This document shows positions 2,372 to 29,053 of a stretch of DNA of 29,253 bases, piece by piece (the first letter of the stretch is position 1; the number at the start of each line of letters is the position of its first letter). Both the position numbers and the translations under genes were made by a program. The notes under the pieces were generated by a model. That model worked only from the letters and a program-made list of their open reading frames with translations, did not search any database and was not told the DNA's origin. The DNA comes from a virus, in IMG/VR virus record IMGVR_UViG_3300048996_000033, positions 1 to 29,253 of that record; one strand, 5' to 3'.

Positions 2372-4247
2372 TCCACTGCTGACGCCCTACGTGGTCGAGC
2401 CGGAGCGCGTCATCGCCAGCGGGATCTTCAAGCGCGTCGTCATGGTGTTCGGCGCGCAGACCGGCAAAAGCGAATTGATGCTGGACGTTGCCGGTCAGCG
2501 GCTCGACCAGCGGCCCGGCCCGATCCTGTATGTCGGACCCAGCAAGCAATTCCTGACCGAGCAATTCGAGCCGCGCGTCATGGCACTGCTTGATGAAGCG
2601 CCGACGCTGATGGCCAAGGTCGCGCGCGGCAAGCGCATGACCAAGACCCGCAAGGTGGTGGCAGGCGTGCCGTTCCGCCTCGCGCATTCGGGATCATCGA
2701 CCGCGCTGAAGTCCGATCCGGCGGTCCTGGCATTGGTCGATGAATACGACGAGATGCGTGACAACGTGAATAATCAAGGTGGCCCGCTTGGTCTGATCGA
2801 GCGGCGCGGCGACACCTATGCCGACTTCGTTTGCGTGGTGACATCGACGCCCAAGCGCGGCAGGGTGGCGGCGGTCAAGGACGAGGCCAGCGGCCTGTAC
2901 TTCTGGGATGTTGCGGTGGCAGAGGACATCGAAAGTCCGATCTGGCAACTCTGGCAGCAGGGCACGCGGCATCACTGGTGCTGGCCATGTCCGCACTGCC
3001 AAGAGTTCTTCGTGCCGCGGTTCAACCTGCTGCGCTATCCGCTGAAGGCCAAGCCACTGCAGGCCGCGCGCGAGACCTTCCTCGAATGCCCGCACTGCGG
3101 CGGCGTGATCGAGGACAGCCACAAGGCCGACATGAATTCGCGGGGCAGATACGTCGCGCCGGGCCAGAACATCGCCAAGGACGGCGTCATCCGCGGCGCA
3201 CCGCAGGAGAGCAAATCAATTTCGTACTGGGTCTCCGGTCTGGCATCACCGTTCGTCACCTTTGGCGAGCGGGTCGCAACGTTGGTCGAGGCGCAGCAGT
3301 CCGGCGACGACGCGATGGTGCAGCAGGCCGTCAATGCAGGCTTCGGCGAGCTGTATTCTCCAGGCGGCGGCGAAGTGCCGGAGTGGATGGAGATCAAGGA
3401 GAAGTCGCGGCAGGCCACCTACAAGCGCGGCGAGGTGCCGAGCGATGTGCTGTATCTGACGCTGGCCTGCGACGTGCAGCGGCACTCGATCCCGTGGGTC
3501 ATAAGGGGCTGGGGCGCGCGCGCGACGTCGTGGCTTGTCAACTACGGCTACCTGCGCGGCGACACCAGCGAGGAAGACATCTGGAATGCGCTGGGCGATC
3601 TGGTCAGCCAGCCGATCGAGGGCGTTCCGATCCGGCTCGCCTTCATCGACAGCGGCTTCCGGCCCGGCAAAACCGACACCCTGCCCCTCAACCGCGTTTA
3701 TGAATTCTGCCGCCGCTTCATGCGCCGGGTGCGACCGACCAAGGGTTCATCGAGCGCGATGCGGACACCGCTGATCTTCAGCAAGATCGAGGTCGCCCGC
3801 AAGGACGGGCGCGCAGCCAAGTACGGACTGGAGCTGGTGCGGCTCGACACCGATCACTGGAAAAGCTGGGTGCATGAGCGGCTTCGTTGGCCAGAAGATC
3901 ACATCGGCGGCTGGCATGTGTTCAACGGCGTCGATGACGATTACTGCCACCAGCTCGTCAGCGAGGCGCGGCTCAAGCAGCCGACCGGCAGGGTCGAATG
4001 GTTTCAGCGCTCGCGCGACAACCACTTTTTCGATTGCGAAGCGATGCAGGCGGCGGCGGGTTACCTGCTCAACGTGCAGCGTATCCCATTGCAAAAAAGT
4101 CATAACAGGAATACGGATGGCGTTGGCAGGCAGCCAGTCACCCCCTCCGAGGTAGTTAGCGCGACGAGCGCGCCCCCACAGCCACCGCCACCAGAGCGCG
4201 GTCGAAGGGTGAGGCGCATCATCAGGTCGAGTTATCTCGGAGCCTGA
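2283..4247 (+). CDS. terL: Phage terminase large subunit, GpA family
   Basis: ATPase-nuclease that packages DNA into proheads; 654 aa, the normal size for GpA/COG5525. Walker A GAQTGKSE is at residues 57-64 and a Walker B-like VLALVDEYDE at about 148-157. A zinc-ribbon-like pair CPHC is at 236-239 and 269-272. The nuclease half shows the acidic residues expected of an RNase H-like fold: D397 (LACDVQ), D456 (FIDSGF) and D584 (FFDCEAM). The C-terminal tail is Pro/Arg-rich and probably disordered. ATG 2283 (MMPSEPTEPD) is preferred because family members begin shortly before the PxxxxxxWA element. ATG 2211 adds 24 residues that look like out-of-frame reading of the upstream gene, although GAGAGG precedes it. 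Confidence 0.96.
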   Translation: MMPSEPTEPDIWAASNRTYPATAAVPGPRDPLLTPYVVEPERVIASGIFKRVVMVFGAQTGKSELMLDVAGQRLDQRPGPILYVGPSKQFLTEQFEPRVMALLDEAPTLMAKVARGKRMTKTRKVVAGVPFRLAHSGSSTALKSDPAVLALVDEYDEMRDNVNNQGGPLGLIERRGDTYADFVCVVTSTPKRGRVAAVKDEASGLYFWDVAVAEDIESPIWQLWQQGTRHHWCWPCPHCQEFFVPRFNLLRYPLKAKPLQAARETFLECPHCGGVIEDSHKADMNSRGRYVAPGQNIAKDGVIRGAPQESKSISYWVSGLASPFVTFGERVATLVEAQQSGDDAMVQQAVNAGFGELYSPGGGEVPEWMEIKEKSRQATYKRGEVPSDVLYLTLACDVQRHSIPWVIRGWGARATSWLVNYGYLRGDTSEEDIWNALGDLVSQPIEGVPIRLAFIDSGFRPGKTDTLPLNRVYEFCRRFMRRVRPTKGSSSAMRTPLIFSKIEVARKDGRAAKYGLELVRLDTDHWKSWVHERLRWPEDHIGGWHVFNGVDDDYCHQLVSEARLKQPTGRVEWFQRSRDNHFFDCEAMQAAAGYLLNVQRIPLQKSHNRNTDGVGRQPVTPSEVVSATSAPPQPPPPERGRRVRRIIRSSYLGA

Positions 4248-4497: not shown

Positions 4498-6078
4498 ATG
4501 GGCGTCATGCGCGACATCCTGTCGGAAGGCATTCTCGGCAAGTTCATCTCGAAAAGCGGTAAGCGCGCCAGCAATTATTATTTCGACGGCGCGGGGCAAC
4601 GGCGGCGGCTCAAAAGCTGGATGCCGACCCAGTACACCACCAACGTCATCCTGTCGGCGACCGGCTCGTTGTTGCGCTCGCGCGCGCGGGATGCGCTGCG
4701 AAACAACCCGCACGCCAACTCTGCCGTCGAGAGCTTCGTTGCCAATCTGATCGGCACCGGCATCAAGCCGTCCTCACTGATCACCGACGATCCCGATCTG
4801 CGCGCCGCGTTGATGCAGCTCTTTCTGGACTGGACCGACAAATGCGATGCCGATGGCATCGCTGACTTTTACGGCATGCAGACCATCGTGGCGCGCGCGC
4901 TGTTCGAGGCTGGCGAGTGCTTCATCCGCTACAGGCCGCGCAAGGTCGATGACGGCTATCCGGTGCCGCTCCAAATCCAACTACTCGAAAGCGAGATGTG
5001 TCCCTACTGGATGAACCAGCAGGCCCCGAACGGCAACTGGATCATGAACGGCGTCGAGCTGGACCTGTTGGGCAAGCGCGCGGCCTATTGGTTCTTTCCC
5101 GTCCATCCCGGCGACATGCCGATCGAGATCACCGGCACGCTGTACCCGGTGCGCATCCCGGCATCCGAGGTGCTGCACATTTTCAAATGCACCCGCCCCG
5201 GTCAGATGCGCGGCGTGCCGCTGATCACGCCCGCGCTGGTGCGCATGTTCCTGCTCGACCAGTACGACGACGCCGAGCTTGAGCGAAAGCGCATCGCCGC
5301 GATGTTCGCGGGCTTCATCACCACCGCAACGCCGGAAGATGTCATCCCGCTCGACGGCATCGACGCCTCCGCGCCCCAGGACAATATCGCACTGTCGGGG
5401 CTTGAGCCGGGCACCATGCAGACACTGCTGCCGGGCGAGGACATCAAGTTCTCGGAGCCTGCCGATGTCGGCGGGTCATACGAAGCCTATCAATATCGGC
5501 AGCAGCTCGCGCTGTTCTCTGCGCTGGGCATTCCCTATTCGGTCGGCACCTCCGATCTGCGCCGCGCCAATTATTCGTCGCTGCGCGGCTCGATCGTGGA
5601 GTACCGCCGCAAGCTGGAGCAATTCCAGCACAACATCATCGTCTTCCAGATGTGCATGCCGATCTGGAAGCGCTGGCTCGATACGGCGGTGCTGGCGCAG
5701 GCGATCCCGATCGACGCCAGCGCTTACCTTGCAGCGCAATCGACCTATCAGCGCGCGAAGTGGATACCGCAGCGGAACGATTGGGTCGATCCGCTCAAGG
5801 ATCGTCAGGCCGAAAAACTCGCAGTCGATGCGGGCTTCAAGAGCCGCAGCGACGTGGTCGAAGCCGAAGGTGCAGACCCGGAAGAAAACGACCAGCGCAT
5901 TGCCGCAGACAAGGCGCGCGAGGAAAGCCTTGGGCTGGAATTCCCGGTCGTCTACGCGGCGGCCACTCAGCCGGGCGATCAGGCAGCGGCAGACCAAGCC
6001 CAACAGGACGCGCAGGACGCCGCCGATCAAGCCGCACAGGAACAAGCCGACGAGGCCGCCGCCGACGACGCGGCATGA
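4498..6078 (+). CDS. Lambda-type phage portal protein
   Basis: Dodecameric portal at the head vertex, 526 aa. It fits the lambda gpB/phage_portal_2 family. Seen here are an N-terminal basic region, an early RARDALRNNPHANSAVESFVANLIGTGIKP block that is highly typical of the family, a central FFPVHPGDMP segment, and LHIFKCTRPGQMRGVPLITPAL. Further on, IPYSVGTSDLRRANYSSLRG matches the conserved region near the clip and stem. The C-terminal ~45 residues are Ala/Gln/Asp-rich, acidic and probably disordered, which could be a site of proteolytic maturation. The start lies one base after the gpW-like stop with AAGGGG upstream. It is translationally coupled with its neighbours. Confidence 0.96.
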   Translation: MGVMRDILSEGILGKFISKSGKRASNYYFDGAGQRRRLKSWMPTQYTTNVILSATGSLLRSRARDALRNNPHANSAVESFVANLIGTGIKPSSLITDDPDLRAALMQLFLDWTDKCDADGIADFYGMQTIVARALFEAGECFIRYRPRKVDDGYPVPLQIQLLESEMCPYWMNQQAPNGNWIMNGVELDLLGKRAAYWFFPVHPGDMPIEITGTLYPVRIPASEVLHIFKCTRPGQMRGVPLITPALVRMFLLDQYDDAELERKRIAAMFAGFITTATPEDVIPLDGIDASAPQDNIALSGLEPGTMQTLLPGEDIKFSEPADVGGSYEAYQYRQQLALFSALGIPYSVGTSDLRRANYSSLRGSIVEYRRKLEQFQHNIIVFQMCMPIWKRWLDTAVLAQAIPIDASAYLAAQSTYQRAKWIPQRNDWVDPLKDRQAEKLAVDAGFKSRSDVVEAEGADPEENDQRIAADKAREESLGLEFPVVYAAATQPGDQAAADQAQQDAQDAADQAAQEQADEAAADDAA

Positions 6079-26257: not shown

Positions 26258-26621
26258 GCTGGTTGCGGTCGGCTTCGCGCTTCTCGTGCCAGCGTTCCGC
26301 CTTCGCCATCTCGGTCTTGTAATCCATCTTCTCGACCTGCTTGATGGTGAACCCGTAGCCCATGCCCGCGAGCGTGGCTTTCATGGTGAGATGCTGCGGG
26401 CGCTTGGTCTTTTTCTTCTGCCAATTGGCGATGGTCTGATTGCCGACGCCTGACAGCATCGCGGCTTCGCCGACGGTCAAACCTTCCTTGGCGATGACAC
26501 TGACAATTTCGTCCATGTCCGGATCGTGATCGTGCTCGATAATTTTCCGGTACAGGCGGATCGTCCCGCTGCGCTTGTTGTGTCCAGGCTTGCCGTGTCC
26601 GTTGGTCGCCTTCTTAGCCAT
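26247..26621 (-). CDS. Small helix-turn-helix protein
   Basis: A 124-aa, strongly basic DNA-binding protein. The HTH is at residues ~48-75: LTVGEAAMLSGVGNQTIANWQKKKTKRPQ, with the GVGNQTIANW recognition-helix pattern of XRE/MerR-like proteins. The next segment HLTMKATLAGMGYGFTIKQVE matches the tail of many XRE-like proteins in which the domain ends in LxxxGY. The C-terminus is Lys/Glu/Arg-rich. It overlaps the preceding gene by 8 bases (translation-coupled) and is the last of a three-gene minus-strand cluster. Confidence 0.78.
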   Translation of the reverse strand: MAKKATNGHGKPGHNKRSGTIRLYRKIIEHDHDPDMDEIVSVIAKEGLTVGEAAMLSGVGNQTIANWQKKKTKRPQHLTMKATLAGMGYGFTIKQVEKMDYKTEMAKAERWHEKREADRNQQKK

Positions 26622-27279
26622 GTGCCGCCACTCCGCTGCCGTTCATCATCGCGCCGTTATGGGCATGTGCCGGTGCTTCGGCGACTACCTTCGCGCCCTT
26701 TGCCAGAACGATGTATTGACCAGTGCCGACGAGCTTGACCTCCTTACGCTGCACCATTTTTGACAGGATCGGGCTGATCGATTTCTCTGGGCGGCCTTCC
26801 TTCACGAATAAGTCCCGAAGCTCTCGCACCGCGAATTGCTTCCGCCCCTTGATTGCAGTTGCGATCAAGTCCTTATTCGCCACGGCATAATGCCCTGTCC
26901 GCTTCTGTTCTGGTGCTGCCAGCGCCTCGACCCGGACGATTTCGTCACCGCTCTTTCTGACGATGTTGGCTTCCGTCAGTTTCTTGATCGCATAATAGGC
27001 CCCGCTCGGGGTCCGGCCCGCCGCCTTGAAATGCGCGACCAGTTCAGTCGATTTGAACCGGGGATGCGCCTTGACGTATTCGGCGGCGAAGTCCTCCACG
27101 CTGACCTCGTGAACCTTGCGCTCTTTCGTCTTGAAGAGATTAACGTCGGTGATCAGTTCGTAGCCGATGTTTTGAAGACCCATGCGGGTGAGCGCGGCGA
27201 GCACGAACCCCATCTGCTCCATCGAGGTCTCAGCAAATATTTTGTATCGATCTATCGTCTCTGGGTCTTTCTTTGCCAT
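26614..27279 (-). CDS. Winged-helix-like regulatory protein, unrecognised family
   Basis: A 221-aa protein I cannot assign to a named family. Residues ~60-120 (FAAEYVKAHPRFKSTELVAHFKAAGRTPSGAYYAIKKLTEANIVRKSGDEIVRV) have the pattern of a winged helix. A second similar unit follows at ~135-195 (ATAIKGRKQFAVRELRDLFVKEGRPEKSISPILSKMVQRKEVKLVGTGQYIV). Two wHTH domains in tandem suggest DNA binding at extended or paired sites. The C-terminus is Ala/His/Gly-rich. It lies between the XRE gene and the small HTH gene, so a lysogeny or late-gene control role is likely. Confidence 0.62.
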   Translation of the reverse strand: MAKKDPETIDRYKIFAETSMEQMGFVLAALTRMGLQNIGYELITDVNLFKTKERKVHEVSVEDFAAEYVKAHPRFKSTELVAHFKAAGRTPSGAYYAIKKLTEANIVRKSGDEIVRVEALAAPEQKRTGHYAVANKDLIATAIKGRKQFAVRELRDLFVKEGRPEKSISPILSKMVQRKEVKLVGTGQYIVLAKGAKVVAEAPAHAHNGAMMNGSGVAAHG

Positions 27280-27311: not shown

Positions 27312-27701
27312 TCAGAGGTTTTCGAACCGCCTCGCCAGATCGACGACCGCAGCCCGCAGGTTTTCGTCCTTGATGGTGACGAAGCTGTCGACCAGCTTCG
27401 ATCCGTCGCGCGTCGCAATCATGCGATCGACGTTGGATAGTTTCGGCTTCTTCCTGCCGCTGCCGTTGCCGGGTTGCTCCGGCAGAAGGTCAGCAACATC
27501 GATATCGAAGACCTGCGCAATCTGCATCATGCGCGTTCCGCTCACCCGGTTGACGCCCTTCTCATACTTTTGGATTTGCTGGAATGAGACGCCGAGCTTT
27601 TCCCCGAGTTCGGCCTGCGAAATTTGAAGCTGATTGCGGTAGCCACGAATTTTTTCGCCGATGTAGGCATCGACTGGCGTGACGCCTCGAATGTTCGACA
27701 T
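27312..27701 (-). CDS. XRE-family helix-turn-helix regulator, repressor-like
   Basis: A 129-aa regulator. The XRE HTH spans residues ~14-70: IGEKIRGYRNQLQISQAELGEKLGVSFQQIQKYEKGVNRVSGTRMMQIAQVFDIDVADLL, with SQAELGEKLGVSFQQIQKYE as the recognition core. This is the short type common in Rhizobiales. A basic linker and a helical C-terminal part (DSFVTIKDENLRAAVVDLARRFE) that could dimerise follow. It is transcribed away from the Crp-like gene across a 357-base control region, as phage repressor genes often are. There is no peptidase/cleavage domain, so induction would not be LexA-like. Confidence 0.85.
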   Translation of the reverse strand: MSNIRGVTPVDAYIGEKIRGYRNQLQISQAELGEKLGVSFQQIQKYEKGVNRVSGTRMMQIAQVFDIDVADLLPEQPGNGSGRKKPKLSNVDRMIATRDGSKLVDSFVTIKDENLRAAVVDLARRFENL

Positions 27702-27931: not shown

Positions 27932-27960
27932 TTGACAAATTATTTTTCGAAAAGCTAAGT
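27932..27960 (+). promoter_or_regulatory. Candidate promoter toward the Crp-like gene
   Basis: TTGACA (27932-27937) is followed 17 bases later by CTAAGT (27955-27960), close to the alphaproteobacterial CTTGAC-N17-CTATAT type. The spacer contains the 10-bp palindrome TTTTCGAAAA (27944-27953), which could be an operator. Transcription would begin near 27967 and give a leader of ~90 bases holding both 19-bp palindromes. The rest of the gap, 27702-27931, shows only a short CAGCC/GGCTG hairpin (27775-27787) and no clear minus-strand promoter. Confidence 0.5.
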
Positions 27961-27988: not shown

Positions 27989-28009
27989 TGAGTAAAGCGC
28001 CTTTACTCA
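27989..28009. promoter_or_regulatory. Palindromic operator-like site 1
   Basis: GAGTAAAGCGCCTTTACTC (27990-28008) has perfect 8-base arms around a CGC centre, and one more T-A pair extends it to 21 bp. It is the exact reverse complement of site 2. As DNA it fits a dimeric regulator; as RNA it forms an 8-bp hairpin. Likely binders are the XRE protein or the Crp-like protein, not decidable here. Confidence 0.7.
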
Positions 28010-28017
28010 TAGAGGTG

Positions 28018-28036
28018 GAGTAAAGGCGCTTTACTC
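28018..28036. promoter_or_regulatory. Palindromic operator-like site 2
   Basis: GAGTAAAGGCGCTTTACTC is the second 19-bp palindrome, 28 bp from site 1 start to start, and ends 22 bases before the TTG start of the Crp-like gene. Only the centre (GCG instead of CGC) differs in orientation. The two copies could therefore also pair with each other in the transcript around a 9-base loop. Confidence 0.7.
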
Positions 28037-28058
28037 ATCGGCGCGGGGGCGCAAAAAA

Positions 28059-28727
28059 TTGAAAGCGACCGTGATGGCGGCAGCGACACTGAGCGACGAT
28101 GAGGCCGCTTGGCTATTCGAGTTTTTCTCAACGCCGGGACCGGGCCGGGAACTGCGCCCCGTGAGAAAGGGCGCGGTGCTATTCAAAAAGGGAGCCGAGG
28201 TGAAGGAAATTTTCTTCATCATGAGGGGCGAGTTCAAGATGAATGCGATCTCCCCGCAGGGCAAGCTGCGCCGGGAAATCTACGGTCCACAAGACTGGTT
28301 GGAATGGGGTTCGCTAACCGCTGACCTTCGCGCTCATAGCGACACTGCCGTCGCGGCAGTGGACAGCGAGGTCGTCGCCTTCCCGCTAACGACATTCCGC
28401 AAGCTGCGTGAGGATCATCCACCCCTGAACGACTTGTTTGTGATAGGAATGGCTCGCCACATCGCTACGATAAACGATGTCGCCGCCGATAGACGGCTCG
28501 CCCGCGAGCTTCTCAAATGGTTTGACGGCAAAGACGTGGATGTCCTGGCGATCGAGATTTCACCGACCCGGCTCGCCGAATTGATCAGTGTCACTCGGCA
28601 AACCGTTCACACCCATATCAATAGATTTCGGGCGAGCGGCTTGGTAACGAAGACGGGCGTGGATGCCTACCTTCTTCACAAGGAACCCCTACAACAGTTC
28701 TTGGCCAACGGAAAACACCGCCGATGA
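28059..28727 (+). CDS. Crp/Fnr-family transcription regulator
   Basis: A 222-aa protein with an N-terminal beta-roll sensor domain (residues ~35-130: GAVLFKKGAEVKEIFFIMRGEFKM...) and a C-terminal HTH at ~167-196 (ISPTRLAELISVTRQTVHTHINRFRASGLV), the usual Crp order. The cyclic-nucleotide pocket looks degenerate. Where FGE and RS are expected there is LEWGSL and RAHSDTAVA, so cAMP response is doubtful. The Fnr-type cysteines are absent. The first codon could be TTG 28059 (GGGGGC 8 bases upstream) or ATG 28074, which has little ribosome-binding site. The gene faces the minus-strand XRE gene and directly follows the two palindromes. Confidence 0.88.
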   Translation: MKATVMAAATLSDDEAAWLFEFFSTPGPGRELRPVRKGAVLFKKGAEVKEIFFIMRGEFKMNAISPQGKLRREIYGPQDWLEWGSLTADLRAHSDTAVAAVDSEVVAFPLTTFRKLREDHPPLNDLFVIGMARHIATINDVAADRRLARELLKWFDGKDVDVLAIEISPTRLAELISVTRQTVHTHINRFRASGLVTKTGVDAYLLHKEPLQQFLANGKHRR

Positions 28728-29053
28728 AACTACGACTTCGACAAATCACCGACAGCAACGCGACCCTTCGCCTCGACGAGGAAGGCATCGTCACCGTGAA
28801 CTGCGCCGACGCGGGAGCGGTCGCCCTTCAGATCGCGCGCGCCGCCAACCGCGATCATATATTCGACGCACTGGTCGCCGCGCTATCGCCGTTTCGATCC
28901 GACGAGATGGGCGGCTTGCTGGTCAGCATGATCGACATTCGCGAACCCAAAGCCGAGGAAGCAGAGAGACGCCTGCGCAGGCTGGTCAGCATGATCGACG
29001 TGATCCTGAACTCCGTCGAGGCCGTCGAGTACGATGACGCCGACGCCGCATGA
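28724..29053 (+). CDS. Small protein translationally coupled to the Crp-like regulator
   Basis: A 109-aa acidic, helical protein that I do not recognise. Its ATG overlaps the regulator stop (ATGA), so the two are coexpressed. The middle contains two LVSMID elements 21 residues apart, separated by a charged helix (REPKAEEAERRLRR), and it ends in an acidic VEYDDADAA tail. Such a small acidic partner could bind or antagonise the regulator, but this is speculation from position and charge only. A terminator 41 bases after the stop ends the two-gene operon. Confidence 0.65.
   Translation: MKLRLRQITDSNATLRLDEEGIVTVNCADAGAVALQIARAANRDHIFDALVAALSPFRSDEMGGLLVSMIDIREPKAEEAERRLRRLVSMIDVILNSVEAVEYDDADAA
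28918..28936 (+). repeat. 19-bp direct repeat, copy 1
   Basis: GCTGGTCAGCATGATCGAC, repeated exactly at 28981-28999, 63 bases (21 codons) later in the same frame. Both encode LVSMID. The intervening sequence is not repeated. Confidence 0.85.
28981..28999 (+). repeat. 19-bp direct repeat, copy 2
   Basis: Exact copy of 28918-28936, in the same frame of the same gene. Confidence 0.85.

Follow-up and report, generated by a model that had tools for sequence, protein, structure and literature searches.

The leader of a phage gene for a Crp/Fnr-type regulator carries two mirrored palindromes, raising the question of whether they act as DNA or as RNA and, if as DNA, which protein reads them. The window, i.e., the whole stretch of DNA analyzed, is an entire IMG/VR record of 29,253 bases and carries terminase, portal, sheath, and tape-measure genes. 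Predicted operator 1 of the Crp-like regulator, GAGTAAAG-CGC-CTTTACTC (27990–28008, plus strand; full site GAGTAAAGCGCCTTTACTC; core GTAAAG-N3-CTTTAC at 27992–28006), was delineated by pattern scans and by the homologous leader site of the relative L005. Predicted operator 2, GAGTAAAG-GCG-CTTTACTC (28018–28036, minus strand; core 28020–28034), is its exact reverse complement. A scan of the whole window returned only these two copies, even when up to three mismatches were allowed, and 100 dinucleotide-preserving shuffles of the window yielded none, giving a chance expectation of none. The original prediction of a palindrome and its exact reverse complement is thereby confirmed, as is the larger dyad proposed for the pair, since inverted-repeat arms of 20 bp, separated by a 9-nt loop, span the two sites with their flanking bases (27989–28037). 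Three of its details required adjustment. The interval given as 27989–28036 ends correctly, but the sequence block begins at 27990; the sites described as perfect dyads are so in their 8-bp arms but not in the 3-bp center (CGC or GCG), which is not self-complementary; and the stated 28 bp is the center-to-center distance, as also seen in L004/L005, rather than the gap, which is 9 bp. With regard to the putative cooperative binding of the original prediction, a spacing of 28 bp amounts to ∼2.7 helical turns, and the spacings observed among relatives (15, 21, 22, and 28 bp) follow no rule.

The palindromes lie between a weakly supported promoter and the start of the Crp-like gene, with a divergent XRE gene adjoining. 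The probable promoter (TTGACA at 27932–27937, 17 bp, CTAAGT at 27955–27960; plus strand, 27932–27960), already named in the original prediction, fails to pass a sigma70 consensus scan, although part of it falls within a block (TTTTCG...GSTAWGTCA) conserved in L005 and L007. The Crp/Fnr-type gene (28059–28727, plus strand) starts at TTG 28059 or ATG 28074, and its end is overlapped by a gene encoding a 109-residue protein with no family match (28724–29053, plus strand), which is kept in all four module relatives and in which family searches recognized no DNA-binding domain. On the minus strand, the divergent gene encodes a 129-residue XRE/Cro-CI type regulator (HTH_3; 27312–27701) with an almost invariant helix, SFQQ[IV]QKYEKG, and its start is ∼290 bp from the palindromes. 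It is followed by a gene for a 221-residue protein with no family match (26614–27279, minus strand), which by eye resembles two winged-helix units. Against the NCBIfam model for Wmk, a protein of Wolbachia phage WO, the XRE protein scored E 1.7e-14, a score far short of the model's cut-off that means a common HTH group and nothing more.

The Crp-like protein contains PF00027 (cNMP_binding) followed by PF13545 (HTH_Crp_2), both above cut-off, and has sequence and fold matches in the PDB. The fold matches are CRP, FNR, GlxR, and NtcA, with significant E-values and TM-scores of only ∼0.43–0.50. An AlphaFold model reached a mean pLDDT of 82 and a pTM of 0.58, which leaves the domain packing uncertain; the low TM-scores would fit two well-modeled domains misplaced relative to each other. 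In the alignment with E. coli CRP, the cAMP contacts E72 and R82 (E. coli numbering) are not kept, and the N-terminal cysteines of FNR-type proteins for a 4Fe-4S cluster are absent from the sequence.

A search with the Crp-like protein as a single query gave no match in the phage collection or in the viral and genome contigs, and the 109-residue protein had no match in genome contigs or plasmids. Relatives were found through the XRE protein, and G008 and G009 were added by a search with the early exonuclease. The module of XRE gene, divergent Crp-like gene, and 109-residue gene is kept in four independent relatives, namely, L004/L005 (records G001/G002), L007 (G003), L008 (G004), and G008. L004 (a 56,971-base record) and L005 (41,518 bases) are near-identical in the module and were counted as one case. 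In L004/L005, L007, and L008, the gene order equals that of the window (221-residue gene, XRE, divergent Crp-like, 109-residue gene), except that in L008 a small additional gene separates XRE from Crp-like, while G008 has the XRE, Crp-like, and 109-residue genes and no match to the 221-residue gene. The window is 84–87% identical to G001 in TerL and portal and 80–86% identical to G001 and G004 in sheath; across the group, identities are 73–85% for TerL, 64–87% for portal, and 66–87% for sheath, with some records lacking some of these genes, and the relatives therefore form a single phage group. Integrases are present in G003, G004, and G008, so a temperate lifestyle is likely. The hosts, as suggested by the XRE matches, are alphaproteobacteria, probably Hyphomicrobiales. 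In G008, a gene for a LuxR-type autoinducer-binding regulator (PF03472 and GerE; L259:1664–2449) lies between the XRE and Crp-like genes, and in L008 the equivalent spot holds a small HTH gene (IclR-like, 5481–5882), as if this intergenic spot were a slot for additional sensors.

The Crp-like leader of every module relative carries repeated or dyad sites. The L005 leader contains three, in the order GTCAAGCAGCTTTAC, near mirror GTAAAGCTACTTGAC, and GTCAAGCAGCTTTAC, of which the first two are 28 bp apart center to center and mirrored, with several shared changes. Single sites were found in L008 (GAGTAAAGGACTTTACTC, 2-bp center) and G008 (GAGTTACC-AA-GGTAACTC), and three direct copies of GGTCAAATGGYCGAYGC in L007. 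The original prediction had proposed that related prophages be searched for the same paired sites: the mirrored pair at 28-bp spacing is kept in L004/L005 but occurs otherwise only in the window, the remaining relatives having one site (G004 and G008) or direct repeats (G003). Just upstream of the three direct repeats of the L007 leader (G003:17465) lies a TAACA-AA-TGTTA dyad, near to a PrfA-type box.

In whole-record scans, the leader site type recurred at a single further location, namely, the region controlling an operon for exonuclease VIII-like and RecT-like proteins. These early sites are GAGTAAAGCGCTTTACTC (core 4958) and GTAAAGCCCTTGAC (5229) in G004; GTCAAGCGACTTTAC (50804) and a weaker GTAAACCTGCTTGAC (51062) in G001; GTCACCTCGGTGAC (53329) and GTAACCTCGGTGAC (53629) in G008; two copies of the CGACCATTTGG dyad at ∼2830–2866 and ATCGACCAAATGGTCGAT at ∼3115–3132 in G003; and GTCAAACATTTTAC (42525) and GTAAAATGCTTTAC (42827) in G009. 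Per record, shuffles gave an expectation of 0 to 0.05 for each site class. G001, G003, G004, and G008 thus have operators at the regulator gene as well as at the early operon. Because the window stops short of the early operon, early operators in its own phage are a prediction; a second operator set very likely lies just past the window end. The early sites flank a sigma54-like element, TGGCA[CT]-N6-TGC[TA], at 50905 in G001, 5052 in G004, 53444 in G008, 2941 in G003, and 42637 in G009. Beyond these control regions, sigma54-like −24/−12 elements of the form TGGCACG-N4-TTGCTACGCGCGG were observed in viral contigs (L221:5052, G001:50905, L225:2941, L252:2108, and L254:2106), with further loci in L229, L232, L237, L239, L241, and L249. 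The full motif is common to several otherwise unrelated viral contigs, and its recurrence suggests RpoN-dependent phage promoters. Paired CGTTAG/CGTTAC repeats were also noted near both operators in the exo-RecT control regions of G001, G003, G004, G008, and G009; these are possible sites of the conserved XRE protein.

Comparison of the sites with the neighboring regulators points to the protein that reads them. Across the phages, four operator classes were distinguished (GTMAAG-N3, GTMAAG-N2, GTNACC-N2, and CGACCA-N2-TGGTCG), and within each of four phages, the leader and early sites share a class, while the class differs between phages. The recognition helix of the Crp-like protein is VTRQTVHTHIN in the window, and the corresponding segments read VTRQTVHT (window), YSRQTVND (G001), ATRQRVTD (G004), IARGTAHR (G008), and CSHSTAKR (G003). 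In a correlation over five phages, TRQTVHT, SRQTVND, and TRQRVTD go with GTMAAG, ARGTAHR with GTNACC, and SHSTAKR with CGACCA. The XRE helix is SFQQ[VI]QKYEKG in all five (TFQQ in G004); XRE proteins are 57–81% identical among these phages, and Crp-like proteins 24–38%. Because operator changes track the helix of the Crp-like protein while that of the XRE protein is almost invariant, the former is the likely binder. It is also the fitting conserved neighbor, given that the 221-residue protein has no match in G008 and the 109-residue protein no DNA-binding domain. Taken together, the palindromes are most probably operators read by the Crp-like protein, whose gene they precede. Several observations count against this reading. 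In G003, the copies in the leader are imperfect as dyads, one of the G001 sites (site B) is degenerate, and in the G009 record early operators are present while no Crp-like neighbor was found. Also counted against it are the odd 3-bp center and 15-bp core of the window and G001 sites; sites of Crp/Fnr proteins are normally even-centered, with 14-bp cores such as GTA-N8-TAC or TTGAT-N4-ATCAA, and an odd center is unusual for the family. Even-centered dyads of the 14-bp core type do occur in G004, G008, and G009 and at the early sites of G003, in contrast to the odd-centered sites of the window and G001.

An alternative reading assigns the palindromes to the XRE protein, which would bind them as CI and Cro bind lambda OR, with the Crp-like gene as merely one target. 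Phage repressors are commonly of XRE type, and the divergent orientation of the gene recalls CI/Cro regions, but a nearly invariant recognition helix is difficult to reconcile with clearly different operator classes. Moreover, among 80 XRE relatives examined, full sites were present only in those beside this Crp-like gene, the palindromes are remote from the XRE start, and the comparison of relatives gave no sign of XRE binding to the palindromes; this reading is highly unlikely. Still less probable is that the inverted repeats act as RNA, with a 20-bp stem and GAGGTG loop or two small hairpins controlling the Crp-like gene at the level of translation or transcription. The fold of the window leader is strong (z −5.4), a score that follows trivially from the palindromes, and the mirrored L005 sites 1 and 2, with their shared changes and 28-bp spacing, count in favor. 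However, the L005 leader folds weakly (z −1.95), the G004, G008, and G003 leaders have no such pair, and the early control region holds the same dyads singly. The RNA structures of the original prediction (one 19-bp stem or two hairpins) are accordingly not conserved across relatives.

The remaining alternative takes the sites for replication-origin iterons, with the Crp-like or another winged-helix protein as initiator. GTAAAG-N3-CTTTAC is also present, apparently as an iteron, in unrelated winged-helix initiator-like genes, and sequence alone therefore cannot name the binder. Arrays of this palindrome occur in many phages inside HTH_36 winged-helix genes resembling replication initiators, and the helix part of the window Crp-like protein shows weak similarity (E 0.011) to a PHROG of replication initiation proteins. 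On the other hand, window-type sites lie in the leader rather than in the gene and number one to three, and at the exo-RecT operon, matching sites stand on both sides of a promoter-like element. An HTH_36 initiator as the binder was rejected, as no protein in the records compared here passed the cut-off for this family. An iteron function is accordingly very improbable. Lambda O-like (HTH_36) initiators have the palindrome in common with the present system and resemble it in their recognition helix (S[RK][PQ]T), but their iterons lie in the gene at about codon 92–120, in contrast to the upstream and distant early positions found here. GTAAAG-N3-CTTTAC iterons within the genes of many unrelated initiator-like proteins with S[RK][PQ]T make it plausible that a winged helix of this type reads GTAAAG, which is an independent hint toward the Crp-like protein. 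Two to four such palindromes, often 22–24 bp apart, were observed in L101, L103, L111, L118, L138, L167, and others, at about codon 92–120 of HTH_36 genes of very diverse phages that share this helix; these arrays are probably replication iterons placed within the gene and read by a common code. A looser palindrome pattern gave >120 matches. Among the 45 loci that had at least two full sites, 38 had them inside one open reading frame, mostly winged-helix initiator-like, and these sites were rejected as relatives of the switch, their placement appearing iteron-like. The sole viral-contig locus matching the palindrome over 16 bases (L003) falls within a coding gene of an AT-rich phage that is unrelated to this one and was attributed to chance.

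With the Crp-like protein as reader of the sites, a homodimer would bind each palindrome through its C-terminal winged helices. As the leader sites lie downstream of the putative promoter, the bound protein would probably block transcription of its own gene, i.e., autorepression. In the sister phages, matching operators, one or two to either side of the sigma54-like element, are very probably bound by it as well, an arrangement suggestive of repression by blocking or looping; it would thereby probably hold the exonuclease VIII/RecT operon off as an immunity-type master repressor, and a putative ligand may relieve the repression. Repression, rather than activation, is moderately favored by the site positions. 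Diversification of regulator and operators together, with the XRE protein little changed, resembles heteroimmunity and likewise points to the Crp-like protein as immunity repressor. The core of the original proposal, an unusual phage switch self-controlled by the Crp-like protein, thus gains support from the comparison of four relatives, whereas its paired layout, cooperative binding, and RNA components are weaker. A broader scenario is offered tentatively, at a level somewhat short of even: in temperate alphaproteobacterial myophages, a Crp/Fnr-type protein may have taken the place of the classical XRE repressor as immunity master on a sigma54-type early promoter and split into heteroimmune operator classes, with its pocket tying induction to a host metabolite or redox signal. 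If so, a metabolism- and redox-sensing regulator family would control the choice between lysis and lysogeny in a phage family, and the prophages could respond to a metabolic signal instead of DNA damage; the sigma54-like early promoter would be a further link between the phage and host nitrogen or stress regulation. The sister phages supply regulator-operator pairs of differing specificity, a natural experiment on how Crp-type helices read DNA and on the divergence of phage immunity groups. Searches of open-access papers yielded no phage master regulator of the Crp type, and a search of the phage collection no Crp-like protein of this kind.

Compared with known members of the CRP/FNR family (CRP, FNR, NtcA, and GlxR), the window protein shares domain order, Crp fold, and dyad operators, but differs in being phage-encoded, in its apparent targets (its own gene and the early operon), and in having odd-centered (3 bp) sites and neither cAMP contacts nor FNR cysteines. 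The NtcA site is reported to be a 14-bp GTA-N8-TAC (PMC3898017), a shape shared by the GTMAAG-N2 sites of G004. Phage VP882, whose TerL is related (37% identical), is known for its host-derived sensory regulator VqmA (PMC10274711), which, unlike the Crp-like protein, is a quorum-sensing receptor. As in a lambda-type CI/Cro switch, regulators are divergent and operators stand at both the regulator gene and an early recombination operon, and as in lambda-type heteroimmunity groups, operator and regulator specificity shift together between sister phages. In contrast to CI/Cro, where the XRE protein binds the operators, operator classes here change while the XRE helix stays nearly constant, which speaks indirectly against XRE binding; the regulator that diversifies is a Crp-type protein beside a short, conserved XRE protein, and the early promoter element is sigma54-like.
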